Part shown: positions 14,601 through 49,232 of the stretch, piece after piece | Position numbering within the stretch: the first letter of the stretch is position 1 | Layout of the letters: each line of letters begins with the position of its first letter | Assembly: GCA_024682555.1 (NCBI GenBank) | Contig: JAIKZD010000119.1 | Coordinates: 1 to 57,086 of the forward strand | Direction of reading: 5' to 3' | Origin: Lachnospiraceae bacterium | GTDB taxonomy: Bacteria > Bacillota > Clostridia > Lachnospirales > Lachnospiraceae | Length of the DNA: 57,086 nt | Made by a program: the position numbers and the translations under genes | Notes under the pieces: generated by a model | Told to the model about the DNA's origin: nothing | The model's database searches: none | What the model saw: only the letters and a program-made list of their open reading frames with translations

Positions 14601-17600
14601 ACTTCGGATATGTCTTCTATGACGGTGACAAGCTGACCTGGGAAGGCGAGGGAACAGAATATTACTTTAAGGAAGTATCGGCTCCTTCGGGATACGCACT
14701 TGACAATACAACGGAATATCATTTTGTGGTCACTGCGGAAAATGTATCCGACTGGATAACCGCAGGGAAAGACGGTTCCGTTCTGAAGGCTGTCAATGAA
14801 AAGATTTACGGACAGGCAAAGCTTAAGAAAATTGACAGTGTATCCGGCAGGGTGATCGAGGGCGCGGTATTTGCGCTTTACACCTCGGCCGGGGATCTGG
14901 TAGAAGGATACACATCCCTTACTACGGACAAAAAGGGTGAGATAATCACAAGGGATGATCTTCCGGCAGGCAGCTATTACTTTATGGAGATCACTCCTGC
15001 CACGGGATATGAGCTTAACAGTACCAAATACGAGTTCGTCATCGACCAGTCCAATATGGATAAAGTAGTCGCTGCAGGCGAGGATGACGGTGTGGCAAAG
15101 AATACACCGAAGCTCGGAAAGGTCGAGCTGTTTAAGTACGAGTCCGTTACGGACGAGAACGGAAAGACCGAAAAGAAGGGTCTTAAGGGAGCAAGGTTTA
15201 CTCTTTATCAGTTAAGTTCGGTACTCGGGTTCTTTGAAACAAGGCATAAGATCGAAACCCTTGAGAGCGATGAAAACGGTATCGTTTCCAAGGAGGATCT
15301 GGCCTGGGGAGATTACGTGTTCGTTGAGGAGAAGGCTCCCGACGGATATACCTCCGAAAAGACGGAGATCAGATTCACCATAAGTGCGGATCAGCTGGAT
15401 TATACCGGAGTGACCTCCGACGGGCAGGCAAGGAGAAAAGAACTTGCAAACAGCAGGAAAAACGGCTCTTTAAGACTTGTAAAATACGGAAATGACAACG
15501 GTAAGAAGGAAAAGCTTAACGGTGCGGTGTTCGATCTTTACAAGGTAAATGTATCAGAGCCGGTAAGGACCTCTCTTGTTACCGGAGGAAACGGAAACAA
15601 TGACGGGGAGATTACGGTAGACAATCTTGAATGGGGTACATATTACTTTAAGGAGATAAAGGCTCCCGACGGATATGCTCTTCCTGAGAACCCTGAAAGC
15701 GCTCATATCGATCTTTCTTCCGGGTCCGCGGTGGAAAAGGCCATTGAATATCATACTGTCGATATGACCAATGATAAGATCTACGGCAAGGCAAGCATAG
15801 TAAAGACAGATGATTCGGATACCCCGAAGGTTCTTACGGGAGCGGAGTTTAAGCTTTACAGGTATGAGGAGGCAGCGGAAGCAGGCGTTTCCCGGAGATT
15901 CAGTCAGGTACATGTCATGACCGCCGAAAACGGGAACTATGTGATGACAGATGAGGCAAACAGCCTTGATAGCGGTATACCCGTGAATTCTCAGGGTATG
16001 ATCACCGTAGAGGGACTTACTTTCGGAGATTATTTCTGGAAGGAATCAAAAGCGCCCGGCGGATATAACCTCAATACGGAGGCCATAGAGTTCCGGATAA
16101 CGAGAAACATGTCGGAGGACGAGGAACCTGTCAAAAGAGTATGTATAGATTCCGAGGTTCAGGCGGCTGTTGAATTTACCAAGGTATATCTTAGCGAGGA
16201 CGATGAATATCTGCCTCTTGCGGGAGCTAAATTCGAACTCTTTAAGGTAACGGCCGAGGATCAGGCGGAAAGTCTCGGCATCAAGGAATCCAAAGAAGAC
16301 GGAAAGGTAAGTGCTGCATATCTTTCTTCTGGTGAGTACTACTTTACGGAGATAGAAACACCGGATGATGCATACGGATTTGCTGCAGATAAGAAATACC
16401 GCTTTACAATAAAGGATGAGGATAACGGACATGTTGTAAGACTCATCGGAAACACGGAGGAAGAGAACATTATTGTAAATACTCCGCTTAAAGGTCAGGT
16501 AACGCTCTTTAAGTATGAAGAGGCGGTAAACGATGAAGGTGATGCGGTTAAGAAACCGCTCTCCGGTGCGGTATTTGAGCTTTACCGTGTAAAAGACGGC
16601 GCCGGGGAACTGATCGGAGAATATACGGTTTCCGATGCCGCTACCGGCAGATTAACGGTAACTGATCTTAACTGGGGAAGTTATTACTTCGTGGAAACAA
16701 AAGCTCCCGCAGGATACGCGCCTGAGACCGAGACTGTTAACGGAAACGTCAGAAACAAGCATTACGAGTTCAGTATAACAGCGGAAAACGTAACGGCTGG
16801 CAGATATTTGGAGGTGCGCAACATCAGGCTCCCGGGATCTGTGGAACTTCAGAAGTTAGATTCCGTAACCAACAGGTCCATGGATGGGGTTACATTTACC
16901 CTCTACAGAGACAGTGCTGATGAAAACAATATAGTTGCGACGCTTACCACCGAAAACGGTGTAGCATCAAAGGACGGTCTTTCATGGGGTCATTATGTCC
17001 TTAAGGAAACCTCCACCAGGTTCGGCTACATCATGGATACAAAGGAGAGAAGCTTTGACATTGACGCAGCTCACTTAAAGGCAAGCTTTTCCGGAAAGGA
17101 CGCTATCATTAATGAGCGCATTCAGGGTTATGTTGAACTGACCAAGCAGGACGCCAAGACCTCGAAATTCTTATCCGGTGTGACATTCAATCTCTATATG
17201 ATCACAGATGAGGGTGAGAGGTTTGCCGGATCCTATAAGACGGATGAAAACGGAAAGCTTTATCAGGGTGAGGGCGAAGATCTCTCCTACAGGATCGGAC
17301 CTCTGGATGCAGGAAGCTACTATCTTAAGGAAGCAGAGGCACTTCCAGGTTACGATCCCATGCCGGTTGGCTATTCGGACGGAAAGATCAAATTCAATAT
17401 TACATCGGCCGGTCAGGTTGTATCCTTTACAAGCGGCGGAGCGGGAAGCATTAGAAACAATCCCGTATACGGCAGTGTCAGGTTAAGAAAGACCGGTGAC
17501 AATACCGAGCCTCTGGCAGGTGCACAGTTCACTCTGTATTCGGATGGCACGGATGATATGAGTTTCAGGCAGAGGATAGAGCTGATTGCCAAAGGTGTAT

Positions 17601-20600
17601 ATAAGGTGGGCGTATATTCGACCAATGCAAATGGCGAGCTCGAAGTCAGGGATCTTCCCTGGGGTGACTATTACTTCATGGAGACAAAAGCTCCCAGAGG
17701 CTATGAGATCATCAGTCCTGATGAGAAATATGCTTTCAGCATTACATCCGAGAATCCTTCTCAGGAAAGAGATCTCGGAGGTATTGTAAATAACAGGCTT
17801 CCGGGAACAATAAGGATCAAAAAGACAGATGATACACCCGATAAGAACGGTATATCCGGTGCAGCATTTAAGCTTTACATGGTAACGGAAAGCGGTGATG
17901 TCGATGTCACGGGCAGGTACGGCGGTGCAGACGGAGTATTAAAGACCTCCGCCGATGGTACCATAACCGTGGAGAATGTGGACTGGGGAACCTATTATTT
18001 CGAGGAGGTTGCTCCCGCATTCGGGTATGTACTTCCCGCAAATCCCAGGAGCGACACAATGACCGTTGATGAGAATAACTGCAATGCTGACGGAATAATG
18101 GTCATACAGGACGTATGCATGCAGAACAGTAAGGGTTACGGATATGTAAACCTTAAGAAGGAGTTCGTTGACGGAAATGCACCTGTTTCGCTATCCGGAA
18201 ACCGGTTTGATCTTATAATGGTTTCGGGAGAAGGAGAAGAGGCGGCAGAGAGCATCATAGGAAGTTATGAGACCGATGCCGAAGGCATGATAAGAGCGGC
18301 TCTCATCGGAAAGCTCGAATTTGGGCATTACTATTTCACAGAGACCGCTGTTTCGGAAGCTGCCAAAGATGCAAGCTACAGGGTGAGTGAACAGAAGCTG
18401 GAATTTGACGTTACCGAAAATATAACGGAAGAAAATGCCGTTACCTATACCTTTAAGAACACCGATGTTCACGGTAATGCAAGGATCGCCAAGATCGATG
18501 CGGACTTTGACGGGGATACGATAAAGGGCATAATCTTTAATATATTCGAGGCCGATGATGATGGTGATGACTCGAATGATGCAAAGGCTGCCACTGCCAT
18601 CTCGGATGAAAACGGTATCGTTAAGGCTATGAATCTTCCCATGGGCACATATTACTTCCTTGAGGATGAAGCCAGTGCAAATGCGGCAGGTTATGAAGTA
18701 AATAAAACAAAGTACTTCTTTGAGATAACCGGGGACTCCCTGACCTCCGATGCAGACGGAAATCCCGTTTATGCAGAGGTTCACGAAGGGACACCTGACG
18801 GAGAGATCGTTACCACGGTTGAGGATAAGAGACTTACCGGTTCCCTTGAATTAAGGAAGTTAGGCAGGGGTGCGGATGGAAAGATCGTTCAGGTCGATCT
18901 GTCTACCGGAGAGTTCATTCTCTGCAACGGTGAAGGAAGAGTTGTTAAGAACGCGGGCGAGCTTAAAGAGTGCATAACGGCGGAAAAGACGATAATAGTG
19001 AATGGGCTTTCATGGGGCACCTACTTCTTTAAGGAGATAAAGGCCCCCGAGGGATATGTTCTGTTGACCGGAGATAAGGCAGAATCCGAGCCGGTTGAGA
19101 TAAATGCAGATAATGTATATGCTGCATCGGAAATCCCTCTGTCCGTCAGCATAACGGATGATACCACCAGGATCTATGTTTCCAAGAAAGAGATAACAGG
19201 TAAAACGGAGCTTGCGGGCGCAGAGCTGCAGATCGCGGAGAAGACTTCCGAAGGCGGTTTGGGTGAGGTCATAGAAGAATGGATCTCGGATGGAACTCTT
19301 CACCTTGTGGAATCCCTTGTAGCGGGAAAAACTTATGTACTGCACGAGAAACAGGCACCTTCAGGATATGCATATGCAAAAGATATAGAATTTACGCTTA
19401 ATGAGAACGGAAGCGTTACCACCACGGCACTTACAAACAAGAACGATGCGGGTGAGAACGGAACAGTGATCATTATGCAGGATGAGCCGATTGAGATAAA
19501 GATATCGAAGAAGTCGCTCATCACGGATGTAAATGATGAAGAGACCGATCTTTCGGATGCGGTACTTAAGATAGTAAGGGCTTCTGACGGCTCTGAAGTT
19601 CAGACCCTTAACATGAAGGGAGAGCCTGAAAAGGTAACGGCAAAGCTCGTGGCCGGTGAGACCTATATCCTTAAGGAAATAAAGGCACCTGCCGGATATT
19701 ATACGGCTGAGGACATCACCTTTACCATCGGAAAGAACGGCGAGATCAAAGACATAAAGGATCCTGCGGCAAAGGCGACGGTGTACGGCGGAAACAATCT
19801 TGTGATGTTTGACAGACCCATTGAGGTAGAGATATCCAAGACAAGGCTCAAAGGTTCGGATACCGATTTTGTTGCCGGAGCGGAGCTTTCACTTTATGAA
19901 TTAAATGCCGACCAGACCTTTACAAGGGTGCATTACTGGACCTCCAAGGGTGGTCCCGAAAAGATGCCCTACGACGTATTAAAGGTTGGCGGTTCATACA
20001 AGATCGTTGAGGACAAAGCTCCGGACGGATATGTTAAGACTGCTGATATAACCTTTACGGTAACGGATTTTGATAAGACAAGAAAGACAGATAAAAACGG
20101 TGTTATCCCACAGTCGGTAAACGTTACGGATGATATCAGAAAGATCATAATAAGCAAGAAGGGACTTACCGGAGAGGATGAGCTTGAGGGTGCAGTGCTT
20201 TCGATCCATGATGAAAAGGATGGAAAGGGCAATGAATACGCAAGCTGGAAATCCGGTGACAAGCCCGCTGTGCTGATATGGATGTCCGGAAGAGACGAGG
20301 ATCAATTTTCACAGGAGGAGAAGGATAATCTTTCAGAGAATTACCAGGTGATCTACAATGCAAAGCTTGAACTGGGAAAGACCTATTATCTCCACGAGGA
20401 TAACGCCCCTGCCGGCTATAATATATCGGATGATATTGAATTTACGGTGACGGATAGCCTTAGCGGTGAACAGACCGTAACAATGAAGGATGTTCCTCTT
20501 GCCATTGCACTTGACAAGCAGGATATGAGTGAAAAGAGATCACTTGAGGGTGCTGTTCTTCAGCTTCTGGACGCATCCGGAAACATCCTTAAGGATGTAA

Positions 20601-23527
20601 CGGGCGGGGATGTAGAATGGACCTCCTCTGACAGACCTGTGATCGTATCGACATCCACGGAGTTTGATGCAGAAGAATATAAGGACATATATGCAAAGAG
20701 GATCGATGCGGAACTTGAAACCGGCAGAACCTATTATCTGCATGAAGCCGCAGCTCCGAAGGATTATGCCCTTGCAACGGAAGACGTGGCATTTACCGTT
20801 GAAAAGAATGACAGGACAGACAATGTCCGTACGGTAGTCATGTATGATTATAAGACCGGAGAGACACAGGTCAGCGGAACCAAGAAATGGATCGTTCCCA
20901 GAGACAATAACGGAAATCTTCCGGCAGGCTTTGTTTATCCCACGGTCACCGTTGAACTTTACAGGGATTCCAATAAGCAGGGTGTTATGGATATTGAACC
21001 CATCGACTCCATAGAGCTTAAAAACGGTCAGGAGACGTTTGCTTTCGGAAATCTTGAGAAGTACAGAAAAACAGACGGAGAGAACTACGAATACACCTAT
21101 ACAGTCAAGGAAAAGGTGCCCAAGGAGGTAAGTGACTACTATGATTCCGTGGTCGCAAAGAATGTGGAGAACGGCACCTGGCTTATAACAAATGCGCTGA
21201 AGCAGCAGGAGACGGAACTGGAAGTCACCAAGAAATGGCTTCTCTTCAGAGATACGGAAGGAAAAGCCGAGGAGGGCCATGATTATCCCACGGTAAATAT
21301 CTATCTTGAGAAAGACGGAAAGACTACCGACAGATTCGTGACCATTGAAAAAGGAGCTTTTGACAAGAACGGAACAGAGGTCTTCAAGTTTGACAAGCTT
21401 GAAAAATATGATCTCTCCGACGGTCATGAATACAGGTATACCATCCATGAGGAGGTATATAATTCCTTCGTTCAGGACATCGTGTACAGCGGAAATTCCG
21501 TTACGGTGATAAATACACCCAAACCGGATACCTTTAAGATTAAGGGCAGAAAGATATGGATCGATGCCGGAAACATAACAGGAAGACCCGATGTGACCAT
21601 AGAGCTGTACAGGGACGGAGAACTCTACAAGACTACAAAGCTGAGTGCCGACGATACATTTGAGTTCGGACCTTTGTATGAGTACAATATGGGCCTTTCG
21701 GATGATGAGGATAAGAAGACCGCGGACGGACACAGATTTGTTTATGAGATAAAAGAGTCCGGAGCACAGGGATACAACGTCGAGATCGAATATGACGGTG
21801 TGATAACAAAGGATGAATCCGGGGAAAGAACGGCAGAAGCTTTAGTCACCAATACGATAGAAAATGAACTGATAGAAATATCCGGTTCAAAGTTCTGGGA
21901 TGATATGGGAGACAGCTCCAAACGTCCCACCATACATATCGACCTTTACAGGGACGGGGAAAGGATCGACAGCCGGAGCATTTCCAATGAGAGCATGACG
22001 TACAGCTTTACGAAACTGCCAAAATACGATCTTGAGGCAAGACCGGTAAAGACCTATGAATACAAGGTGATCGAGAGAGCTGTTGACGGATACGTTTCAA
22101 ACCCTGCAGAGGGATATACAATAGATATATCCGATGAAACAGTTACAAGAAACAAGACTGACGGCATCTGGGTATATCAGTATAAGGACAGAGACTTTAC
22201 TAATAAACCTACCAGGATAAGAGTTGATAAGAGAGATTCCGTAAGCGGGGAAAGCCTTGCCGGAGCAAAACTTACGCTCATCAGAAAATCCGACGGTGAA
22301 CCGGTTGATACCTGGATAACTAACGGGACTCCGCGGGTGATCGAAGGACTGGTGAATGGAGAGACCTATATTCTTAAAGAGGTCGAAGTTCCGAAGGGCT
22401 ACTTAAAGGCTGAGGATCAGGAATTTACCGTAACCGCTGACGGAACAATGGAACAGAACATCATAATGAAGGATGAGAGGATAATCGGAAACGTGATCCT
22501 CACCAAGCGGGACAGAGATACAAGAGAGACACTTTCGGGTGCGGTATTTAATCTCTATAATTCTGCCGGAGCAGCCGTTAAGGCGACGGGTTCTAACGGT
22601 GTCTACACTTATTCCGGAAACGGAAGCGGCACCATAAGCCTTGCGGTATCCGAATCGGGTACTCTGGAGGTTAAGGGTCTTCCCTTCGGACTATACTACT
22701 TCAAAGAGACAAAGGCACCTGACGGTTATGAACTTTCGGCGGAGACGGCATCATTCTCCATAGATGCTGCAAAGAAAAACAACGATACCGTAGAGATCAC
22801 CTTCTTAAATACAAGAGGTAAGGGTGCGGTAAGGCTTTATAAGGTTGCTTCCGGCAGGGGATCTGCACTTGCAGGTGCGGTATTTGAACTCTACTCTGCC
22901 AGACCCAGAACACCCGGACAGGCAGCTGCATCGACTGTTTTCAGTAATGCCTATTACCGTTACGGAACTTATGTGACCGACAGTGCCGGTGAGATCTATA
23001 TAAAAGATCTTCCCTGGGATTCATATTACTTCGTGGAGACCATAGCACCAGACGGATACAGGGTTAATAAGGATGTGAACGGGGCTGATATTGTATATAC
23101 CTTTACGATCAACAGTTCCACCGCGGCATCTGTTGCATACAGCCTCGGAACGATTACAAATGACAGGGAGGACAGACCTACTCCTACGCCGACACCGACG
23201 CCCGGAGTAACACCTACGCCGACACCCGGGGCAACACCTACACCCACACCCGGAGTAACACCGACACCCACGCCTGCGGTTCCCACCCCTACACCTTCAG
23301 GCTCAAGGGTACTGGGTGAAAAGAGAGTCAGAGAGGGCGGAGTATTGCAGGGAGTACTCGGAGTACGTTCGGCGCCCGAAAAGGGTGTCCTCGGAGAGAG
23401 GGTAGGACCCGTGACCGGAGATGCATCCAGCATAGCATTGTGGATAGTACTGCTGATTGCCTGCGCGGCTACCATAGTCGGGATAATATTAAGGTCCTCA
23501 AAGAAAGGAAAGAGGAGCAGGGCCTGA
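5624..23527 (+). CDS. Giant cell-wall-anchored SpaA/Cna_B repeat adhesin
   Basis: A single uninterrupted 5967-residue frame (roughly 0.65 MDa). Residues 1-29 form a signal peptide ending CSIFA. An E/Q-rich acidic stretch follows (about 30-110). Residues to about 1450 hold larger beta-sandwich regions, some resembling isopeptide-forming pilin domains. From about residue 1455 to 5850 there are about 39 tandem modules: 27 SpaA/prealbumin-like units with the pattern KxD...SGAVFELY...LPWGTYYFxETKAPxGY...N; five of a second type (about 4514-5080) opening ISKK and closing in D; four Cna_B units (about 5080-5525) with KxW...VxLYRDG; and three more SpaA units. A PT-rich linker (5852-5892), PVTGD (5929-5933), a membrane helix (about 5937-5956) and a KKGKRSRA tail complete a sortase substrate, though the motif lacks the usual Leu. 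Such modules typically form Lys-Asn isopeptide bonds that stiffen stalks and pili. The likely role is adhesion to host, fibre or other cells. No sortase gene is in the window. An AAGGAG site precedes the ATG. Confidence 0.93.
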   Translation: MSKKRWFRSFIAMIAMVTMLLENTCSIFAVEEQNTVYFEAESGIGQEEAIQEQQEEEPAEPEASGKGYEQEEFTQAEEAPAEEQTDNDTGNDPENTEETEIIDEETDAGDISAFVGVIDDTAGKGIEISGYDEIPLYIDTDQMNMSDRFTVSLEGDANENAVYSDILDGEMGKGDSNIYTLSDLNKKSLIVRAQTISEGMEAVYDVRESDGYPRITLISGDDPEAEKELSASEDGVYGSGYDEIIITTDNSSLSDQSGYDLYIDTEAEAYYNDGLITDGVISTLSKEDRSIRIYNLDDRAFSLHFSTDTDNEIRTQYRVDSVSNGAISVIISDASEEEAAVPEEKENIKRVYNDSANGITVTATLETPDAVPDEAQLRVTPITGGIADTYLTALDQADETKEHTLRNTLLFDIAFIMINENGEEYEYEPKEGSVKIKISLSETQLNKIGVEGTEEVKVTHLPIDESVKSAEELTVEKTDISPEDIRTETVAMDAEGSTISFDTDSLSVYGVDAAGAPVSADEALSGNGIDLSKMVSKIKVDGKEVTDSLEIDADSFRLAMYFRENGANQFGRLMYYELPAGLTFDDATPTSAYIELSGNVEVTDENGEKQTVSLSGKKIPFTCYVDKSSDGRYYLMVELDSTSENYKYVDAIGNVQFNVGLTASFSSEANEASFGGSDLFEGEVTINRKEHEETDNSSLKTEKWGSLSSDGKKITYTVRVTSTGESKNVEITDIIKDGAAYVTLDKSSVRVKSNKSGKSYIVEYGNASGELWHIGSSVTKDSEGNYTGGISLSDGEVITVTYTCNVKDLTEEDLKKKSISTYNYVVGSDKGQQKSYDEETIVIYTFDIPTEKVGVLDKNTNIVHYTITINKDKSRNIKGQKIKDRLYHSLKAYSEFTGDGIYVSIDDGPAKLVSWDKLKNQSGNYGLDAINTDKIFYYRPIEESSSYSGYNKVVITYDVRVNAEDILVSGNLGNRIRVGDYGTEIESNLIGFEPEKENKLKVTKKAGEIKDGRLPWTVTFTVPPAGYDTCEVTDMLPVNRQDQNSGKIYVDIVDKDRDITVTSSDGSPVYYDVYLDKGDSKMDHPNELTFVFYKDRNKQNTGFAAGNQRTITIVINSKINEDWYARVADDIYNFRAHYNEVYVDANGIERSANATAYTDFNRSINKNFDRVADPVTIDGVEYQSYLYNIRLYGVNTDTITIEDTFDNCLKLYTPETYIYSMDPVIHGGWWMGSGEKYARITTEDDGSQIRASMTFEVPKKSDGSFYDDYTIYYYLIPRDQAALEHMRVEAAENNGYVLRNTATWNGLSDSAEYKYTYADETVGKKELEKPTKENEYVGKYQIDINKDGIRYGTSDYIDVYDIMTNLKLVNNSEKPVTVVYGDGSQETILPVWDTEKGAWKFQIRNGISAVVTYYATVIGEDGQTVKYSNAVSFFGYTSKSIQNQSFVERAGGSGATGTLVLDKKDADDGTSIGGAVFRLYRWKNSSADPLTVNESDWEPVTDKAGNYIDRTTNAAGRASFYGDDLRDGWFLSTDEFYAVREIKAPAGYIPDETIHPFIVQNNLAINDPPAFLSIIPVDSDGRISVTNEKAPTTEFDIRKISSDTGAPLKGAVFKLTPADGSATPVQTVTTGVDGIAHFEQIYGGETYTVTETSVPEGYVMPARNSWTVEVAENFEITAEGLAFSRGSETGEDSTGSSVFTADIENIPSKGKLTVHKEVRDSLGNKDASASETFYVTVKDKDGNYYDINGQVVTADENRAVAVSANASVTFSDMPLGTYTVTEVNADGTVLSSSFDYIVTGQSEEVVISPKNPGAEITITNTAKKHGKINIIKKDYSFESPLSGAEFVIRRSGNRVSFTGSDGVYTYSEDQTDTVLVTGHDGSLSVNDLPWGNYTVAETKAPNGYRISLTAPVSFSVGENGITYGGASSEYLSISSKSEYELEYVFRDEEKPFALRIRKTKNGNENFAGVTFTVSGNGRTYTGETGSDGTVTFEGLSWGTYTYKETVPEGYEKSENSEGTVTVGKNDYADVTDIYVRDITVDNTFITGRVTLFKKTDKNAPLENAVFELRRGSVNGNVVKGSETKKGEYAYSSEDGVYRFTTDAKGNIVITGLPAGNYYFTEISAPEGFVASTDTPGFTIENNGDEKTVEMANDDFSASVRFKKIDSRTEKGLDGVVFDLYKDGNLYRQGITSEGGGYVNVSGLSKGSYFFKERQALEGYVLNETELSFAITDATAQNETVTLDDVSRQDENGYAVIGNDEAYGRVILEKFAENSKGVRTHLQGITFKLVPVYDVNGKPVSRNDINNAKTEETDENGRAVFNDVAWGTYYLAEVTNDAGKSYLPDNGHGSEPGRTENFIIGAGENATLEKSFTGGDAFINKIKTGKVKLNKIDRTSKDAINGAVFTLYRTDGAVIGTYTTQNGEINVSDLEYGDYYFAETEPAPKGYIADTEKHYEFTIDGESDSAQIDAYVKDVENERALGKVRIRKTDLQGELITSDDESKAAEFTLYSSNPERWTDKLKDLFNISSDFEYGVYTVNGECEITDLPWGKYILRETKAPEGYVLKETEYSFTIGGVGDDIVIDAGTISVSDEEEKGSIKLVKTDSLGHGDADMSGAEFELYRTVDGNDVRYPDAYTTFVTEKINGEYTFTVDDLPWGTYYFVETRAPKGYELPEGDAARTESVTIDSSNTESSVAADGTKQPLISITNDKIYGSVTIHKVKAGDNRVKLSGATFRIVMEEDGVEKNLKLTETGTGIYTFDRQRRFFEGQQILSTNEGDLTINDLPYGTYRIYEETAPAGYNRAEGPLEFTISDEDRDTGFVKEYDFENSLIQANVKFVKTGDNSELLSGATFELFREEKTEGPEETGIVSKGTVTTGSDGVVEVKSLPAGSYFFREISGPAGYEFDADKEYRFTVTAADNGKYVNISPARSFTNGKGETLQAVNNTRKTGKVRLKKTDENNDPLAGAVFALYKVGDSSPIATNLVSSDEEGDNFGYVFYDGDKLTWEGEGTEYYFKEVSAPSGYALDNTTEYHFVVTAENVSDWITAGKDGSVLKAVNEKIYGQAKLKKIDSVSGRVIEGAVFALYTSAGDLVEGYTSLTTDKKGEIITRDDLPAGSYYFMEITPATGYELNSTKYEFVIDQSNMDKVVAAGEDDGVAKNTPKLGKVELFKYESVTDENGKTEKKGLKGARFTLYQLSSVLGFFETRHKIETLESDENGIVSKEDLAWGDYVFVEEKAPDGYTSEKTEIRFTISADQLDYTGVTSDGQARRKELANSRKNGSLRLVKYGNDNGKKEKLNGAVFDLYKVNVSEPVRTSLVTGGNGNNDGEITVDNLEWGTYYFKEIKAPDGYALPENPESAHIDLSSGSAVEKAIEYHTVDMTNDKIYGKASIVKTDDSDTPKVLTGAEFKLYRYEEAAEAGVSRRFSQVHVMTAENGNYVMTDEANSLDSGIPVNSQGMITVEGLTFGDYFWKESKAPGGYNLNTEAIEFRITRNMSEDEEPVKRVCIDSEVQAAVEFTKVYLSEDDEYLPLAGAKFELFKVTAEDQAESLGIKESKEDGKVSAAYLSSGEYYFTEIETPDDAYGFAADKKYRFTIKDEDNGHVVRLIGNTEEENIIVNTPLKGQVTLFKYEEAVNDEGDAVKKPLSGAVFELYRVKDGAGELIGEYTVSDAATGRLTVTDLNWGSYYFVETKAPAGYAPETETVNGNVRNKHYEFSITAENVTAGRYLEVRNIRLPGSVELQKLDSVTNRSMDGVTFTLYRDSADENNIVATLTTENGVASKDGLSWGHYVLKETSTRFGYIMDTKERSFDIDAAHLKASFSGKDAIINERIQGYVELTKQDAKTSKFLSGVTFNLYMITDEGERFAGSYKTDENGKLYQGEGEDLSYRIGPLDAGSYYLKEAEALPGYDPMPVGYSDGKIKFNITSAGQVVSFTSGGAGSIRNNPVYGSVRLRKTGDNTEPLAGAQFTLYSDGTDDMSFRQRIELIAKGVYKVGVYSTNANGELEVRDLPWGDYYFMETKAPRGYEIISPDEKYAFSITSENPSQERDLGGIVNNRLPGTIRIKKTDDTPDKNGISGAAFKLYMVTESGDVDVTGRYGGADGVLKTSADGTITVENVDWGTYYFEEVAPAFGYVLPANPRSDTMTVDENNCNADGIMVIQDVCMQNSKGYGYVNLKKEFVDGNAPVSLSGNRFDLIMVSGEGEEAAESIIGSYETDAEGMIRAALIGKLEFGHYYFTETAVSEAAKDASYRVSEQKLEFDVTENITEENAVTYTFKNTDVHGNARIAKIDADFDGDTIKGIIFNIFEADDDGDDSNDAKAATAISDENGIVKAMNLPMGTYYFLEDEASANAAGYEVNKTKYFFEITGDSLTSDADGNPVYAEVHEGTPDGEIVTTVEDKRLTGSLELRKLGRGADGKIVQVDLSTGEFILCNGEGRVVKNAGELKECITAEKTIIVNGLSWGTYFFKEIKAPEGYVLLTGDKAESEPVEINADNVYAASEIPLSVSITDDTTRIYVSKKEITGKTELAGAELQIAEKTSEGGLGEVIEEWISDGTLHLVESLVAGKTYVLHEKQAPSGYAYAKDIEFTLNENGSVTTTALTNKNDAGENGTVIIMQDEPIEIKISKKSLITDVNDEETDLSDAVLKIVRASDGSEVQTLNMKGEPEKVTAKLVAGETYILKEIKAPAGYYTAEDITFTIGKNGEIKDIKDPAAKATVYGGNNLVMFDRPIEVEISKTRLKGSDTDFVAGAELSLYELNADQTFTRVHYWTSKGGPEKMPYDVLKVGGSYKIVEDKAPDGYVKTADITFTVTDFDKTRKTDKNGVIPQSVNVTDDIRKIIISKKGLTGEDELEGAVLSIHDEKDGKGNEYASWKSGDKPAVLIWMSGRDEDQFSQEEKDNLSENYQVIYNAKLELGKTYYLHEDNAPAGYNISDDIEFTVTDSLSGEQTVTMKDVPLAIALDKQDMSEKRSLEGAVLQLLDASGNILKDVTGGDVEWTSSDRPVIVSTSTEFDAEEYKDIYAKRIDAELETGRTYYLHEAAAPKDYALATEDVAFTVEKNDRTDNVRTVVMYDYKTGETQVSGTKKWIVPRDNNGNLPAGFVYPTVTVELYRDSNKQGVMDIEPIDSIELKNGQETFAFGNLEKYRKTDGENYEYTYTVKEKVPKEVSDYYDSVVAKNVENGTWLITNALKQQETELEVTKKWLLFRDTEGKAEEGHDYPTVNIYLEKDGKTTDRFVTIEKGAFDKNGTEVFKFDKLEKYDLSDGHEYRYTIHEEVYNSFVQDIVYSGNSVTVINTPKPDTFKIKGRKIWIDAGNITGRPDVTIELYRDGELYKTTKLSADDTFEFGPLYEYNMGLSDDEDKKTADGHRFVYEIKESGAQGYNVEIEYDGVITKDESGERTAEALVTNTIENELIEISGSKFWDDMGDSSKRPTIHIDLYRDGERIDSRSISNESMTYSFTKLPKYDLEARPVKTYEYKVIERAVDGYVSNPAEGYTIDISDETVTRNKTDGIWVYQYKDRDFTNKPTRIRVDKRDSVSGESLAGAKLTLIRKSDGEPVDTWITNGTPRVIEGLVNGETYILKEVEVPKGYLKAEDQEFTVTADGTMEQNIIMKDERIIGNVILTKRDRDTRETLSGAVFNLYNSAGAAVKATGSNGVYTYSGNGSGTISLAVSESGTLEVKGLPFGLYYFKETKAPDGYELSAETASFSIDAAKKNNDTVEITFLNTRGKGAVRLYKVASGRGSALAGAVFELYSARPRTPGQAAASTVFSNAYYRYGTYVTDSAGEIYIKDLPWDSYYFVETIAPDGYRVNKDVNGADIVYTFTINSSTAASVAYSLGTITNDREDRPTPTPTPTPGVTPTPTPGATPTPTPGVTPTPTPAVPTPTPSGSRVLGEKRVREGGVLQGVLGVRSAPEKGVLGERVGPVTGDASSIALWIVLLIACAATIVGIILRSSKKGKRSRA
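23177..23298 (+). repeat. Pro-Thr wall-spanning linker repeat within the adhesin gene
   Basis: A low-complexity stretch encodes about 40 residues of TPTPTPG[VA] units with a roughly ten-residue period. Such PT linkers typically cross the peptidoglycan between surface domains and the sorting signal. The repeat is coding and in frame. Confidence 0.85.
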
Positions 23528-41023: not shown

Positions 41024-41074
41024 TTGATAAGGTGATTTATACCGGTATATTGCATATTAAGGAGGATTACTTTT

Positions 41075-41485: not shown

Positions 41486-44400
41486 ATGGCAGCTAAAGAA
41501 AATCAGGTATGTCTGGCTGCAATGCAGTTTAGCAGAAACATAAAAAAACCTATCCCCGAAGCCGTTATATACGGCTATGCAAAGCTTCTGTCCTTAGATG
41601 AGAATCAGGTTAAGAATTTTATTTCCGATGACTGTATGGATGATCTTGAGGCAGCTCATAAGTGGTTTGAAGAAAAAAGACTGGATATGGATATCATCAA
41701 GTTTGGCCTTATGATCATCATTCCCCTGATCCCCGCCCGGGAGTCGGAGGAAAAACAGCAGCAGTTTAAGGATTTTATGGATCTTGAGGATAAGAATACC
41801 GGATCCGCCGATATTCTTGATAAGGCACTGGATACTTCATTTGTGGATTTTAAGAAGGTTTTTGTAACCGGAAAGGGTCTTCAGGATGTATTTAATTACA
41901 GTGAGGAGCTGAAGAGTAAATATCCCCGCGATACGCAGAATGAGGATGAGAGCGCTGAGATCCCGGATAAAAAAGAGAGCAGGGCGGGGGATACGGCTAA
42001 GAAGGATACCGGTGCAGGCGGAAAGGTCACTGCATCCGGGAGTAAAGGAACAGGAGCCGGGAATAGAGCTATAGAAAAAAGAGATCTCGGTGTTCTTTCT
42101 TCAAAGTACCGAAAACTGAGCGCCGAGCTTCTGGATGTGGTCAAAGGCCAGGATCAGGCTATTGAAAAATTCATACAGGGCTACAATCAGGGAGAACTGT
42201 TAAAACAGATGGAGAGGGGCAGTCACCCGAAAACATTTTTCTTCTTTTTCGGGCCGCCCGGAGTAGGTAAAACACTGCTTGCGGAGACTGCGGCCAACGC
42301 TCTCGGAATGCCGTTTAAGGTATTCAATATGAGCGAATATGCGGCTCACCAGGCTCATGAGGATCTTATTGGGATCGCGAGGATATACAGTCAGGCAAAG
42401 GAGGGAACCCTGGTCAGATTTGTAAGGGAAAACCCGGAATGCCTTCTGATATTTGATGAGATCGAAAAAGCGCATCTGAATGTCATAAGACAGTTCTTAC
42501 AGATCTTAGGCTCGGGAAAGCTTCATAATGTTTTCCGGGATGAGGACACAAGCTTTAAGGATGCAACCCTTATTTTCACCTCAAATGCCGGCAGAGCGCT
42601 GTACGAAGACAGGAGCCAGAATCTAACCTCCTTACCGGAAAAGGTGATAATAGATGCCATAACAAGTGAGAAAAATGCATACGGTGAGCCTGCTTTTCCG
42701 AGGGAGATGTGTTCGAGGATAGCATCCGGAAACACCATAATGTTCAATCACCTGTCGATAAGGCATCTTGCGGGGCTGGTAAGAAAGAGCTTCGATGAAG
42801 TCACCTACGGACTGGAGCAGGAGTACGGGGTAAAGATCACATATACAAAGGAACTTCCATTACTGTTTTTGTTTAATCGCGGCGGAGAGATAGATGCAAG
42901 GGTTGCTGTCTCCCAGAGCGGGAAGTTCTTAAAGGATGAGATCTACGGGCTTTTACGCCAGTTTGAGAACGGTAAGAATGCCTGCAGTGACATAAACAGG
43001 ATCGACATCGATATTGAGTGGAAAGGGATGGACGGGGAACTTAAGCGCCTGTTTAAGAACAGTGACCACTCCGATGTGATGGTGTTTTCGGACCGTGAAG
43101 AACTGTTTGATTCCCTGTCCGACAGCCGTTATAAGATATTAAGGACCGACTCCCTTAAAGAGGCGGCTGAGCTTGCCAGGAAGGACATTTCCGCGGTATT
43201 CATCGATCCCTTCCTGGGAAGGAAAAATGATGATACTGCGCTGAGCATTTCGGATTATAATACGGACGGTGTCAGGCTCTTTCATAAGCTTATGGAGACA
43301 GGGAGCGAGCTTCCGGTCTTTCTGCTTGAAATGGACAGTGACTTTTCGGAAACCGACAGGAGGACATTTTTACAGGCAGGGGCAGCAGGAAACATATCTG
43401 TCAACTCCTCACAGCCACAGAGTCTTAAGAGGCAGTTTAATCAGATCATGGAAGAACTGTATATGGAAAGGGAGAGCAGCACCTTTTCACAGCAGGGCTA
43501 TGTCATCGATTATAATACCAAACAGGAGCTTACGGATAAAAAGGGCAGGGTAAAGATACTGTTCTATGAACTGAAAAAGAGGATGGCTCCCGATATAGAA
43601 AGCAGGGGAGCTATATTATCCGATGCACAGCGTCCGTCCATAACATTTGATGATGTGATAGGTGCGGAGAACGCCAAGAAGGAGCTTAAGTATTTCATCA
43701 ATTATTTAAGGAATCCCAGACAGTTTCTCATGACAGGCGTAAAACCGCCAAGGGGCATACTTCTTTACGGTCCGCCGGGTACGGGAAAGACAATGCTTGC
43801 AAAGGCAATGGCAGGAGAATCGGGTGTTACGTTTCTGCAGTCCTCTGCCACGGATTTCATGAACAAGTATTTCGGAACCAGTGAGGAGAATATCCGTAAG
43901 ATATTTGAAAGAGCCAGAAAGTATGCTCCGTCGATAATTTTCATAGATGAGATAGATGCGATCGGTAAGAAAAGAACGGGGAGTGATACGCGAAGTGCCG
44001 AAGAAACCATGTTAAATGCCCTTCTGACACAGATGGACGGTTTTTTATCTTCGGATCCGAAAAAACCGGTCTTTCTGCTTGCCGCAACAAACTACGGTGT
44101 GGACAGTGAGGATGACGGGATCAGTCCTCTGGATCCCGCTCTCATCAGACGGTTTGACAACGAGGTATACGTTGATCTTCCCAGGGAAAACGAGCGTAAA
44201 GAATACCTTTTAAAGAAGCTTGAGGAAATGCACATTGACACCGTATCCGAAGAAACCGTGCAGAACATAGCGGAGCGTACCACGGGGCAGAGTATTGCCA
44301 TACTCGAAAAGGTCTTTGATCTTGCAAAAAGGAATGCAAAAGGTGGACCCGGAAAGATCACGGATGATGATCTGCTTTCGGCCCTTGAAGAGATCCTTTA

Positions 44401-44959
44401 CGGAGAAAAGAAGGAACATGAGCCCGAGTATTACAAAGAGGTTGCGATCCATGAGACCGGACATGCGTATGTGTCCTATATGAACGGAGACAAGCCCTCT
44501 TATATCACCATTGAGTCACGGGGAAGCTTCGGCGGTTATATGCAGCATTCCAATCAGGAGAACGTGACGGGATACACAAGGGAGGAACTCCTTGCAAAGA
44601 TCAGGATTTCCTTAGCCGGAAGGGCTGCGGAAGAGGTTTTCTTCGGAAAGGAAAAGTCTTTAAACACGGGAGCATCAAGTGACCTTAAAAATGCAACCGA
44701 GCTTGCCTGGAGGATCATCTGCACCTACGGTATGGAAGGCGATCAGCTTATAGTACTGAAAAAAGAGGATATCCTGAAATCATCGGTTGCACCGCAGTAT
44801 ATCGAAAAGGTAAACGGGATATTAAAGGATGAGATGGAAAAGACTGTAAGGTTCATCGGGGAAAACCGGGAAAAGATCCGGGAGATCGCCGATGTCCTCG
44901 TAAAGGAAAACCGTCTCACCGGCGATGCGTTTGAAAAGCTGATAGATAAGAAACAGTAA
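41486..44959 (+). CDS. Clp-type AAA+ / receiver-like / FtsH-type AAA+-M41 protease fusion
   Basis: An 1157-residue soluble protein. Residues 1-150 are helical and unrecognised, followed by a Gly/Ser/Lys linker (about 165-200). Residues about 215-470 form a Clp D2-like AAA+ domain: Walker A GPPGVGKT (about 255), MSEY, Walker B LLIFDEIEKAH and sensor TSNAG. Residues about 529-655 look like a receiver domain: VFIDPFLG holds a possible phospho-Asp and GVRLFHKLM fits helix 3, but the usual Lys after strand 5 appears absent (NISVNSS). Residues about 715-940 are FtsH AAA+: GPPGTGKT (about 762), FIDEIDA and LIRRFD. The M41 zinc protease has HETGH at 989-993 and a third ligand in TGASSDLKNAT. FtsH normally starts with membrane segments; none are here. 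It presumably unfolds and degrades cytosolic substrates, perhaps in a phosphorylation-gated way (inference). No ribosome site; likely coupled to the YbjN gene. Confidence 0.88.
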   Translation: MAAKENQVCLAAMQFSRNIKKPIPEAVIYGYAKLLSLDENQVKNFISDDCMDDLEAAHKWFEEKRLDMDIIKFGLMIIIPLIPARESEEKQQQFKDFMDLEDKNTGSADILDKALDTSFVDFKKVFVTGKGLQDVFNYSEELKSKYPRDTQNEDESAEIPDKKESRAGDTAKKDTGAGGKVTASGSKGTGAGNRAIEKRDLGVLSSKYRKLSAELLDVVKGQDQAIEKFIQGYNQGELLKQMERGSHPKTFFFFFGPPGVGKTLLAETAANALGMPFKVFNMSEYAAHQAHEDLIGIARIYSQAKEGTLVRFVRENPECLLIFDEIEKAHLNVIRQFLQILGSGKLHNVFRDEDTSFKDATLIFTSNAGRALYEDRSQNLTSLPEKVIIDAITSEKNAYGEPAFPREMCSRIASGNTIMFNHLSIRHLAGLVRKSFDEVTYGLEQEYGVKITYTKELPLLFLFNRGGEIDARVAVSQSGKFLKDEIYGLLRQFENGKNACSDINRIDIDIEWKGMDGELKRLFKNSDHSDVMVFSDREELFDSLSDSRYKILRTDSLKEAAELARKDISAVFIDPFLGRKNDDTALSISDYNTDGVRLFHKLMETGSELPVFLLEMDSDFSETDRRTFLQAGAAGNISVNSSQPQSLKRQFNQIMEELYMERESSTFSQQGYVIDYNTKQELTDKKGRVKILFYELKKRMAPDIESRGAILSDAQRPSITFDDVIGAENAKKELKYFINYLRNPRQFLMTGVKPPRGILLYGPPGTGKTMLAKAMAGESGVTFLQSSATDFMNKYFGTSEENIRKIFERARKYAPSIIFIDEIDAIGKKRTGSDTRSAEETMLNALLTQMDGFLSSDPKKPVFLLAATNYGVDSEDDGISPLDPALIRRFDNEVYVDLPRENERKEYLLKKLEEMHIDTVSEETVQNIAERTTGQSIAILEKVFDLAKRNAKGGPGKITDDDLLSALEEILYGEKKEHEPEYYKEVAIHETGHAYVSYMNGDKPSYITIESRGSFGGYMQHSNQENVTGYTREELLAKIRISLAGRAAEEVFFGKEKSLNTGASSDLKNATELAWRIICTYGMEGDQLIVLKKEDILKSSVAPQYIEKVNGILKDEMEKTVRFIGENREKIREIADVLVKENRLTGDAFEKLIDKKQ

Positions 44960-45000: not shown

Positions 45001-45750
45001 TTATTTTACAGGTATGGGAAACACCTTCATATCATCAAGCCTCAGGAAAAGAGCTCCGTTATTTATGCTTTTCTGTTTTCCGTATGCGCAGCCCCCGTCT
45101 ATATCTATCAGATTTTCTTTTTCATATATCCTGATAGTATCAAGGTCCGTGCTTCCGAGATCATACCGGATCTTTACGGTGGGAACATGGCCCGTTATAA
45201 AGGTATATGCATACCCGTCATAGATAAAATCCGCATGTGTGTCGGGATCATCCCTGAATATTGAATTCCATACTATATCGGAGACTGTTCCGTAATCAAG
45301 CTCGCTGTATTTTTTATTTTCCGCTATGTCAATGAAAAAAGAATGTGTCAGGCAGAAATCCTTACCGGATACGTTGATGATCTTTGTGACATATCTGTCA
45401 TTCAGCCAGGCTAAGAGCTCTTTCCGTTCCGGTTCACTCAGCCCGTAGTATTCGTTCAGGGTCTTATCACCGCCGTTATATATGAGCCAGATGAAAGAGT
45501 CGGTACCGTGACATGCCTCTTTGCCATCGGGATCCACGGAATTAAGCATCATGAATTCATGGTTTCCGATGATCAGATCCATGTTTTCATGTTCCTTGAT
45601 ATACCTAAGCAGCTTTATTCCTTCGGGTCCTCTGTCGATCGCATCCCCGATCACGTACAGGGTATCATCATCATTAAACCCGGTTTCCTCAAGGCCTGCC
45701 ATAAAGGTATTAAATTGTCCGTGCAGATCGGATACGGCATAAACGGCCAT
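45001..45750 (-). CDS. Metallophosphoesterase, serine/threonine phosphatase type
   Basis: A 249-residue calcineurin-like phosphatase of the bacterial PPP class (lambda phosphatase/PrpE type). The dimetal motifs are all present: SDLHGQF (residues 7-13), GDAIDRGPEG (about 35-44), GNHEF (about 61-65), later LTHSF and TGHVPT, and DIDGGCAYG near the C-terminus. It should dephosphorylate phosphoproteins or dinucleotide polyphosphates with Mn or similar metals in the cytosol. GGAGG precedes the ATG. It lies 24 bases downstream of the esterase gene on the same strand and is convergent with the AAA-FtsH gene. Confidence 0.92.
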   Translation of the reverse strand: MAVYAVSDLHGQFNTFMAGLEETGFNDDDTLYVIGDAIDRGPEGIKLLRYIKEHENMDLIIGNHEFMMLNSVDPDGKEACHGTDSFIWLIYNGGDKTLNEYYGLSEPERKELLAWLNDRYVTKIINVSGKDFCLTHSFFIDIAENKKYSELDYGTVSDIVWNSIFRDDPDTHADFIYDGYAYTFITGHVPTVKIRYDLGSTDLDTIRIYEKENLIDIDGGCAYGKQKSINNGALFLRLDDMKVFPIPVK

Positions 45751-47633: not shown

Positions 47634-49232
47634 ATGAAACAGCTGGCTGAGATGCTTGGAAACTCATTTCCGCAGTTCGCATCCGCCTTAACGGGGATCA
47701 TATTTATTGTTTTTCTTGTATTGCAGATATCGGATGATTATGACAAGATTGTCAAATTCATAAAGAGGCTTTTCGATTTCAGGAAGTATATAGATACACT
47801 GATCTATAAAAAGAAACGTGAAGGATTTAACAGGGTCCTGGCAGATCATGATTTTCTCGGGTGGCAGTTTGAACTAATGAAGGTGATCTACGGCCCGCTG
47901 ATCGAAAAAAAGGATGAAGAACTGAAAAAACATGGCGGAAGCATCGGTTTTTCAACCATAAAGCTTGACGACAGCAACGGAAGATCCTACAGTTATGAGT
48001 CTGTTTCCATCAGAATGCCCAGGGTCCCCTATCCCTTTACGGGAGTCTGCCCGAAGAAGGAACTTAGGACTTCACCGGGACTTGAAAATGCAAAGATCGC
48101 GGACCTTGACAAGGCCATAAACGGCGGGATAATCACATCATTTAAAAGGCAGATAAGACGTTATTATGCGATGATACGGGCTACCATAAGATATCCGAGG
48201 CGTCTCGGATACATGCTGGGTGAGATAGTACAGGACGGCTCCGAAGCAGGAAAGCCCGGGTGGCATCTGACAGCTTATTCCGGTGTTTATGAGCACAATG
48301 TCAGGACAAGCCACATTCTGGAATATGAGATCTACAGGTTATATAAACGGGTGAAACACAGAAAAGAGTGGAAGAGTGAAAATCTTGCCGCTCTCGGTCG
48401 TGACAGGATCCTGAAAGAACTGCCCATAAGGGAGCATTTACATAAGCAGTTTATCAGAGACGGAGATGAAAGCGATATCCTCATTTCCGGAAAGCACAGA
48501 GCGTCCCTCATGGGCGTGCAGGCCTTTGTCCTGATCAAAAACAAATCAGGCTCTTATGATGCCCTGAGAATAAGGCGTTCGGAGAACGTTGCAGCCAAAC
48601 CGGGTTTTTTGCAGTTCATCCCTTCGGGAGGGTTTGAGGCCATGAATGACTGCACTGATTTTGACTCGCAATGGGACAATTATTCGCTGACAAAGGCAAT
48701 TTTCAGGGAGCTTTTGGAGGAATGCTTCGGACAGGATGAAGATGATAAGCATGCTACGGGAAATAACGTATCTCCTGACAGGCTTTACAGCAATGAACAG
48801 ATCAAAAAGCTTGTAGAAATGCTTGAAAATACGGAAGCTGACCGGCCCAATGCCGAGATGGCGCTTTTGGGGACCACGATGAATCTGGTGGGACTCAGAC
48901 AGGAGCTGTCTTTCATACTGAGGGTGGATGATCCGTCTTTCTCGGGAAAGCTGATAGCAAATTACGAGAGCAGGACTGCCGTTCAGCTGGTAGATATATG
49001 CCATATGGAGGAATACGGATTCTGGGTGCGTCCTAAAGAGGAACAGACGGAAGGACAGAAGGGGAAAAAGGGAAGACGGAAGAAAGGGAAAAACAAAGAG
49101 CAGGGGGAAAACGATCTTGAAAATCTTAACTGTACAAGTGCCGGGTTGTTTGAACTGGCAAGGGAGAGCAGCATCTATAAAGAAGCCCTTGAACATGGAG
49201 AAAGCAAGGATGATCTGGTCAACGTGTTTTAA
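47634..49232 (+). CDS. Membrane-anchored Nudix-like protein
   Basis: A 532-residue protein with one N-terminal membrane helix (about residues 18-35, ALTGIIFIVFLVLQI), then a basic cytoplasmic region without recognisable motifs (about 45-290). Residues about 300-460 look like a Nudix fold: FIPSGGFEAMND provides the leading glycines, and the helix AIFRELLEECF carries the REXXEE core. The spacing between them is about 12 residues longer than in the standard Nudix box, so catalytic activity is uncertain. A K/G/R-rich tail follows (about 470-495). Membrane-tethered Nudix-like domains are reported among conflict-associated proteins (the SMODS-associated NUDIX group), but no nucleotidyltransferase is nearby. 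Function not known. AAAGGA lies 11 bases before the ATG. Confidence 0.62.
   Translation: MKQLAEMLGNSFPQFASALTGIIFIVFLVLQISDDYDKIVKFIKRLFDFRKYIDTLIYKKKREGFNRVLADHDFLGWQFELMKVIYGPLIEKKDEELKKHGGSIGFSTIKLDDSNGRSYSYESVSIRMPRVPYPFTGVCPKKELRTSPGLENAKIADLDKAINGGIITSFKRQIRRYYAMIRATIRYPRRLGYMLGEIVQDGSEAGKPGWHLTAYSGVYEHNVRTSHILEYEIYRLYKRVKHRKEWKSENLAALGRDRILKELPIREHLHKQFIRDGDESDILISGKHRASLMGVQAFVLIKNKSGSYDALRIRRSENVAAKPGFLQFIPSGGFEAMNDCTDFDSQWDNYSLTKAIFRELLEECFGQDEDDKHATGNNVSPDRLYSNEQIKKLVEMLENTEADRPNAEMALLGTTMNLVGLRQELSFILRVDDPSFSGKLIANYESRTAVQLVDICHMEEYGFWVRPKEEQTEGQKGKKGRRKKGKNKEQGENDLENLNCTSAGLFELARESSIYKEALEHGESKDDLVNVF

Follow-up and report, generated by a model that had tools for sequence, protein, structure and literature searches.

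An AAA+ protease usually combines a single type of motor with a single peptidase. A gene whose product joins, in one chain, two motors from separate AAA+ clades with a peptidase and a regulatory receiver fold was found in a 57,086-nucleotide stretch of DNA from a Lachnospiraceae bacterium (GenBank assembly GCA_024682555.1, contig JAIKZD010000119.1, positions 1 to 57,086; the whole stretch is referred to here as the window). Its open reading frame (ORF), at 41486–44959 on the forward strand, is intact and encodes a protein of 1157 amino acids, here termed the fusion (Table 1). FtsH (TIGR01241; peptidase family M41) shares with it an AAA motor followed by an M41 protease with an HExxH motif; the fusion differs from FtsH in the absence of a transmembrane anchor, in its additional Clp motor, receiver and Clp_N-like domain, and in its separate position in a phylogenetic tree. 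The Hsp100 proteins ClpA, ClpC and ClpB share the D2-type AAA_2 motor with a small lid and the Clp_N-like N-domain, whereas the fusion appears to have no D1 ring and, in 81 of 82 aligned rows, no ClpP-docking tripeptide, brings its own protease and apparently carries a receiver in the lid. That receiver has the (beta-alpha)5 fold and the phospho-Asp position in common with response-regulator receivers and pseudo-receivers, and differs from the receivers in having a longer loop after D574 and in not keeping the acidic pair, Thr/Ser and Lys.

Some conflict systems also bear likeness to the locus. In the IetAS anti-phage ATPase–protease pair the protease is a separate subtilisin-like protein; the fusion matches the PADLOC IetA models (best E-value 3.8e-48), with the match confined to its AAA part. 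Twelve models of PADLOC 2.0.0 matched the fusion, each only in part, and no full-length match was obtained. In FtsH-containing MoxR-vWA ternary conflict systems, a two-AAA protein with an inactive FtsH-type first AAA and an active FtsH-type second motor is accompanied by MoxR and vWA partners, with rare ClpN repeats on the vWA partner (Kaur 2020, PMC7159879). Compared with the systems set out in that text, the first AAA of the fusion is of the AAA_2/Clp type with intact Walker motifs, and is followed by a receiver and then by FtsH-M41. TY-chaperones, the family of the YbjN-type partner gene preceding the fusion, sit in ADP-ribosylglycohydrolase systems with restriction endonucleases and phosphatases, some of them calcineurin-like, according to the main text of PMC9503650, in which the term 'ftsh' does not occur and no Clp-FtsH protease is described. 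The initial annotation of the locus held that no protease with this order of domains was known, and a search of titles and abstract openings in the open-licence PMC literature likewise returned no description of the architecture among the matches listed. Protein databases may well already contain it under no name of its own.

The fusion is best explained as a soluble, self-contained, ATP-dependent two-motor protease fed by a YbjN-type adaptor, with a probability of about 0.62.

Table 1. Features of the fusion gene and its partner gene in the window
Feature	Position	Strand	Evidence
YbjN-type (TY-chaperone-like) partner, 135 aa	41075..41482	+	Pfam YbjN PF10722, 30.8 bits (gathering cut-off 22)
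Clp_N-like / Clp D2 AAA+ / receiver-like / FtsH AAA+ / M41 fusion, 1157 aa	41486..44959	+	
N-terminal helical domain, aa 7-145, divergent Clp_N-like	41504..41920	+	Family N-terminal profile; helices in model
Clp D2-type AAA+ motor, aa 201-512	42086..43021	+	
Clp motor sites: Walker A 256-263, pore-loop aromatic Y301, Walker B D324/E325, Arg finger R411, sensor-2 R472			
Receiver-like domain, aa 529-669	43070..43492	+	Profile and structure model
D574 codon, phospho-Asp equivalent	43205..43207	+	Asp in 78/81 distinct rows; HMMER alignment to YycF receiver
Beta-hairpin, aa 672-700, probable rest of Clp small (lid) subdomain	43499..43585	+	Suggested by structural alignment
FtsH-type AAA+ motor, aa 716-972	43631..44401	+	
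M41 zinc metalloprotease domain, aa 980-1154	44423..44947	+	Pfam; conserved residues
HETGH zinc-binding motif	44450..44464	+	

Domain order and catalytic sites

Relatives were collected by a scan of one genome per species using short conserved patterns, which gave 140, and the best 80 of these were analysed. A closed ORF of more than 1000 amino acids was present in 75 of the 80; these 75, with eight others and less one duplicate (L085, identical to L046), form an alignment of 82 rows. One contig stands in it twice (L054 and L078, 99.9% identical), so that counts out of 82 include that contig twice and counts out of 81 refer to distinct rows; 79 representatives were below 90% identity. Four loci open at the end of their stretch (L058, L069, L095, L104) and one with two ORFs (L060) were left out of the alignment and are still among the 86 loci used for neighbour counts, where these five may include duplicates.

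The order Clp D2, receiver-like, FtsH and M41 within one chain, as first annotated, was seen in all 82 rows. A chance open frame or a chimeric contig could be suspected, given that the genome is a draft in 159 contigs and that its contamination is 5.84%, but this explanation is refuted by the relatives, with their identical domain order in 79 representatives below 90% identity, and by the coupled YbjN gene, and its probability is negligible. The fusion is a real family, more general than the copy in the window. Both motors and the protease passed Pfam cut-offs, with AAA_2 (residues 248–395), AAA (758–897) and Peptidase_M41 (983–1152; PF01434, 97 bits against a gathering cut-off of 29.9) all well above them, while the receiver and N-domain were assigned from profile and structure evidence. 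The FtsH model TIGR01241 reached 326.5 bits against a cut-off of 600, and the ClpA model TIGR02639 135.7 against 993.15, with only residues 192–456 matching positions 436–684 of the 734 in the profile.

In the Clp motor, Walker A and B, sensor 1, Arg finger and sensor 2 are all present, as in a D2-type motor. The Walker A lysine, the Walker B Asp D324 and D470 were invariant in the 81 distinct rows, and the Arg finger was kept in 80, as was a pore-loop aromatic residue (Tyr, Phe or Trp). A tripeptide of the ClpP-docking type, which we take to be [LIVM]G[FLI], was found between sensor 1 and the Arg finger in a single fusion row, compared with two of the four Clp proteins of the window's genome; its absence from the other rows would be expected of a chain that carries a protease of its own.

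Similarly, the FtsH motor showed an invariant Walker A lysine, Walker B D821/E822, R888 and R889 in all 81 distinct rows, and the same was true of H989, E990, H993 and D1066 of the M41 domain, the last being the distal Asp and presumably a zinc ligand. With G992 of HExGH in 82/82 rows, the arrangement is that of an FtsH-type enzyme, in which an AAA motor precedes an M41 domain bearing HExxH and a distal Asp, and this bears out the full FtsH ATPase and HETGH zinc protease of the initial annotation. Both Walker lysines and the zinc site were invariant in the 79 representatives. Median identity to the window copy was 41% for the Clp motor, 52% for the FtsH motor, 42% for M41, 22% for the receiver and 12% for the N-domain. 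Both motors and the protease are thus under strong constraint, which reads as the mark of an active machine and not of a relic.

No N-terminal membrane anchor was detected in the 82 fusions by hydropathy or in the structure model, as had been annotated. The hydropathy value KD19 was at least 1.6 in only six of the 82 (1.62–1.72), compared with 28 of 29 canonical FtsH proteins (2.05–3.05; the 29th, L030, had 1.08), and the window copy reached 1.70, in a modelled helix. The fusion is predicted to be soluble because hydropathy and model both speak against an anchor.

A profile built from 68 N-terminal regions matched the ClpA N-domain best (E 7e-5), followed by Hsp104 (0.03), with ClpC2 and ClpB weaker (E above 0.3). 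Single sequences gave less: the N-domain of the window copy alone had no Pfam match at E 0.1, at which threshold three of the 68 matched Pfam Clp_N, and in locus L055 the domain is short or missing. The match of the profile to the ClpA N-domain suggests that the N-domain is Clp_N-like and hence that the D1 ring is absent and the D2 ring retained. A Clp_N-like N-domain joined to a Clp motor would also fit an accessory stress proteostasis machine of gut and rumen Clostridia, a disaggregase-protease comparable to ClpCP with MecA and with the protease built in; however, the patchy presence of the fusion and the island-like neighbours at some loci would be unusual for a housekeeping function, and this explanation is considered possible but rather doubtful.

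The receiver-like domain

Profile evidence and the predicted structure agree on a receiver fold over residues 529–669, the latter showing (beta-alpha)5 topology when compared structurally with VIA-align, which re-aligned Foldseek's own list. The window copy scored 15.5 bits against the PF00072 gathering score of 30.2, and 17 of 73 family members matched PF00072 at E 1 or better (best 1.2e-4). In the HMMER alignment the conserved Asp of the profile of this domain is paired with that of the 'LILLD' stretch of YycF's receiver. The candidate phospho-Asp of the initial annotation, D574, is indeed largely retained, the exceptions among the distinct rows being L063 and L098, with Asn, and L046, with Glu. 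As it is kept in 78 of 81 rows although the domain has a median identity of only 22%, D574 probably has some function. Among the 81 distinct rows D590 was conserved in 77, P610 in 80 and G632 in 81. The longer loop after D574 carries a conserved L-N-x-E-D-like motif (L586 in 71, N587 in 61, E589 in 58 and D590 in 78 of 82 rows).

It had been proposed that phosphorylation gates proteolysis; in such a scheme a histidine kinase would phosphorylate D574 and so open the Clp ring. The receiver fold and the retention of D574 are in its favour, and 36 of 82 rows, the window copy included, have D574 with one acid of the pair. However, the full pentad of acidic pair, Asp, Thr/Ser and Lys, whose positions were presumed from CheY and placed by eye, was found in 0/82 rows. 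The first acid of the pair was absent throughout and the second position acidic in 37 rows; the Thr/Ser position held Glu or Gln in 66 and Ser or Thr in five; and the presumed Lys position was Leu, Val or Ile in 62, with some Lys within 637–641 in 16. Classical phosphorylation gating is therefore improbable. As the pentad is incomplete in every row and D574 is replaced by Asn in the copy of Ruminococcaceae bacterium AB4001 (L098), a pseudo-receiver that would dock a protein or ligand is favoured.

The receiver had also been described as lodged between the two AAA+ motors. This holds for the order of domains, but the structural alignment points to a different position: of the 311 residues of the ClpB D2 chain 4fcv, 304 were aligned over residues 201–685 of the model, and the receiver seems to be inserted in the small lid of the Clp motor.

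The YbjN-type partner gene

The stop codon of the YbjN-type gene ends three bases before the ATG of the protease gene, and, for the YbjN-type gene, an AGGAGG was noted by eye at 41060–41065. A promoter-like site at 41024–41051 was discarded, as the count for the region was no higher than in shuffled sequence (8 vs 7.2). At E 0.001 no second protein of this type was matched in the window's genome. A survey of the gene neighbourhoods of relatives, proposed as a check in the initial annotation, found a YbjN-type ORF in 49 of the 86 loci and within 1 kb of the fusion in 45, the window included. With the exception of L113, the 49 loci have it on the strand of the fusion, and 19 of them have at least two copies. 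When the YbjN protein of the window was used as query against nine genomes at E 0.001, all ten homologues adjoined the protease gene. Two proteins of another neighbour type gave no PF10722 match, and this type was aligned with the window type by profile comparison (probability 96.9). The natural reading of this coupling is that the YbjN-type protein would act as an adaptor delivering substrates to the protease.

Phylogeny and distribution

In a tree of FtsH domains all 27 sampled fusions fell on one side of a branch with 99/100 support, apart from 29 canonical FtsH proteins from related genomes, which points to a single origin. The best 80 of the 140 relatives were all from Clostridia, which, given the need of the scan for short conserved patterns and the restriction to the best 80, does not imply absence elsewhere. 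Of these 80 records, 79 were marked as metagenome-assembled genome (MAG) or uncultured, and a gut or animal sample was named for 45. Presence is patchy: the fusion was detected in 2/37 genomes at genus level (N-terminal query), 5/392 in the order, 3/391 in the class and 3/398 in the phylum. All four counts take in the window's genome, the samples overlap one another, and one phylum-level match (G940) is cut by a contig end. Among 61 genomes (the window's, 36 of the genus and 24 of the order) the window's genome and G012 each gave a long match, and G024 has a broken copy (L010, 1158–2421) in which an N-terminal piece is closely followed by the C-terminal protease part. Two matches each were seen in G1188 (C12 and C14), G1201, G1203 and G1205; the scores of the two G1188 matches are identical and may reflect an assembly duplicate.

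A viral origin was rejected, since two scans of viral_contigs gave no relative and no protein coverage of at least 80% was found in phages (50,697 records) or plasmids (72,556). Adjacent genes for a Clp-like protein and a soluble 424-amino-acid FtsH-like protein in the window's genome (C110, L051) were first read as a cut fusion. This split form was also rejected: by eye, the Clp protein has two AAA modules and an IGF tripeptide and a ClpP-like gene lies nearby, and a pattern scan found no Clp-type motif within 1.5 kb at four other loci of the 424-amino-acid family (three genomes). The region in question (L051, 1–13970), where the soluble-looking FtsH/M41-like gene stands beside two-AAA Clp, ClpP-like and VirD4-like genes, is perhaps a mobile element, and relatives of the 424-amino-acid protein occur in three others of the 150 family genomes.

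Neighbouring genes and a possible role in conflict

Neighbouring genes were taken as longest-ORF calls, with ORFs antisense to YbjN treated as artefacts, and the 25 commonest families were compared between a near set (130 of 270 eligible genes) and a far set (110 of 148); the neighbour names STAND, FHA, TerB, VirD4 and ClpP are tentative, given by eye. A Card1-like CARF (PD-D-ExK) nuclease gene was present in 13 of the 86 loci, within 1.5 kb in ten, as a 1293-amino-acid ORF in L100 and on the other strand in L065. A TrkA/RyR-type membrane protein or lone RyR-domain gene was present in 25. At least one of YbjN, RyR-type and CARF occurred in 64 loci. The PADLOC CARF_PDDEXK models matched 7/130 near and at most 4/110 far genes, and Pfam Card1_endonuc 6/130 and at most 1/110. 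One of two Card1-like proteins tested singly passed the Pfam cut-off, and the L074 copy matches the PADLOC CARF_PDDEXK models. The lone RyR gene of L083, the only one tested singly, gave E 6.8e-39. A firm RyR label for the large membrane proteins was abandoned, with Pfam RyR reaching only E 0.04–0.09 in only two of five tested; TrkA_N was matched at E 0.001 by 3/130 near genes, and profile comparison of the membrane-protein groups with the lone RyR genes gave a probability of 87.8% for one group and 2.7% for the other. The term RyR-type is therefore used with caution.

A CARF query against 25 genomes gave between zero and three matches in each, and since homologues are this few, chance adjacency is unlikely in the 12 genomes picked for linkage. 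In the 13 genomes not chosen for linkage, CARF was absent from seven and on other contigs only in four, and in the other two it lay 5.3 and 9.3 kb from a fusion.

These neighbours raise the possibility that the fusion works, as proteolytic effector or as regulator, in a conflict (anti-phage) system signalled by nucleotides, in which CARF or TrkA/RyR-type sensing of infection or damage would lead to proteolysis of an inhibitor, an antitoxin or phage proteins. The CARF and RyR-type counts, the higher frequency of CARF/Card1 models near the fusion, its patchy presence and a same-strand run of four genes in AB4001 all lean this way. However, no CARF or RyR-type gene was found around the window's own copy, 22 of 86 loci have none of the three neighbours, CARF homologues occur in only six of the 13 unselected genomes, four of them solely on other contigs, and the PADLOC matches of the fusion are partial, covering AAA parts only. 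Protein kinases and TIR were rejected as a neighbour signal, being no commoner near than far (TIR_2 2/130 vs 3/110; Pkinase 3/130 vs 5/110). A role in conflict is possible, and this explanation is judged tentative, on a par with the proteostasis one; it is compatible with the two-motor protease set out above, which leaves the pathway open. A more specific form of it, a proteasome-like two-motor immune protease of Clostridia, fed by TY-chaperones and switched by nucleotide messengers that neighbours of the Card1-like CARF and TrkA/RyR types would relay, the lid-inserted pseudo-receiver being the junction between signal and motor, is somewhat less likely still.

In AB4001, apparently an isolate genome, the run (L098, 2952–10415) comprises genes for a membrane protein, a Card1-like protein, a YbjN-type protein and the fusion; the membrane protein was grouped by cluster only and has no Pfam RyR or TrkA match. 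Card1-like CARF and TrkA/RyR-type genes occur together in nine of the 86 loci (L074, L106, L109, L135 and others); no clustered regularly interspaced short palindromic repeat (CRISPR) array was seen with these pairs by a crude repeat scan, which flagged one of the 86 loci (L064), and the pairs could be a system of their own. Downstream of the fusion in L079, L095, L102 and L130 is a protein of about 370–400 amino acids with HEFGHALGLGD, followed by a TerB-like protein of about 153 (by eye); the L079 copy of the former matches Peptidase_M10 only at E 0.0011.

In the window itself a metallophosphoesterase gene lies at 45001–45750 on the opposite strand, and its hidden Markov model also matches five other loci. 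A 532-amino-acid protein (47634–49232) gave no Pfam match at E 0.5 and by eye has a Nudix-like box. At 5624–23527 is an ORF of 5967 amino acids whose first 1000 residues resemble a secreted surface protein by eye, in that they begin like a signal peptide and include an acidic segment.

Proposed mode of action and significance

In the preferred reading, that of a soluble two-motor protease, six copies of the fusion would assemble into two stacked AAA+ rings above a proteolytic chamber of M41 domains. Substrates would be picked by the N-domain and the YbjN-type partner and passed to the Clp ring, which would engage and unfold them, and would then be threaded by the FtsH ring into the zinc-protease chamber. 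Within the Clp small lid, the receiver-like domain would act as a switch, allosteric or for docking, in which the classical chemistry of phosphorylation by a histidine kinase is lost and one crucial Asp is retained. Hexamers, ring order and threading are suggested by known Clp and FtsH machines, and the adaptor role and the lid-inserted switch we infer.

Several observations weigh against this reading or parts of it. The pore aromatic of the FtsH motor is less strictly kept (Tyr, Phe or Trp in 72/81 distinct rows), and the pore loop is shortened in L047 and L054. The lid insertion is drawn from structural alignment ranges, many of which end near residue 513, and the profile alignment to Clp ends at the sensor-2 helix. 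The nine genomes searched with YbjN had all been chosen for a locus already showing the gene, so that the result means that they hold no YbjN copy elsewhere and says nothing of how frequent the pairing is. A YbjN-type ORF was missing from the stretch examined in 37 of 86 loci, some of them cut by contig ends, which indicates that the adaptor is lacking in part of the family or that its gene sometimes lies at another site. In the tree, long branches were flagged by the program, and the stem leading to the fusion clade is itself long.

The fusion has diverged to a median identity of 41–52% in its motors and protease with all checked catalytic residues kept. It would show how a receiver fold within the lid of an unfoldase can regulate it, and would provide a model from nature for soluble degradation machines encoded by a single gene. 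Should the island neighbours prove meaningful, it would add regulated proteolysis to the immunity of gut bacteria.

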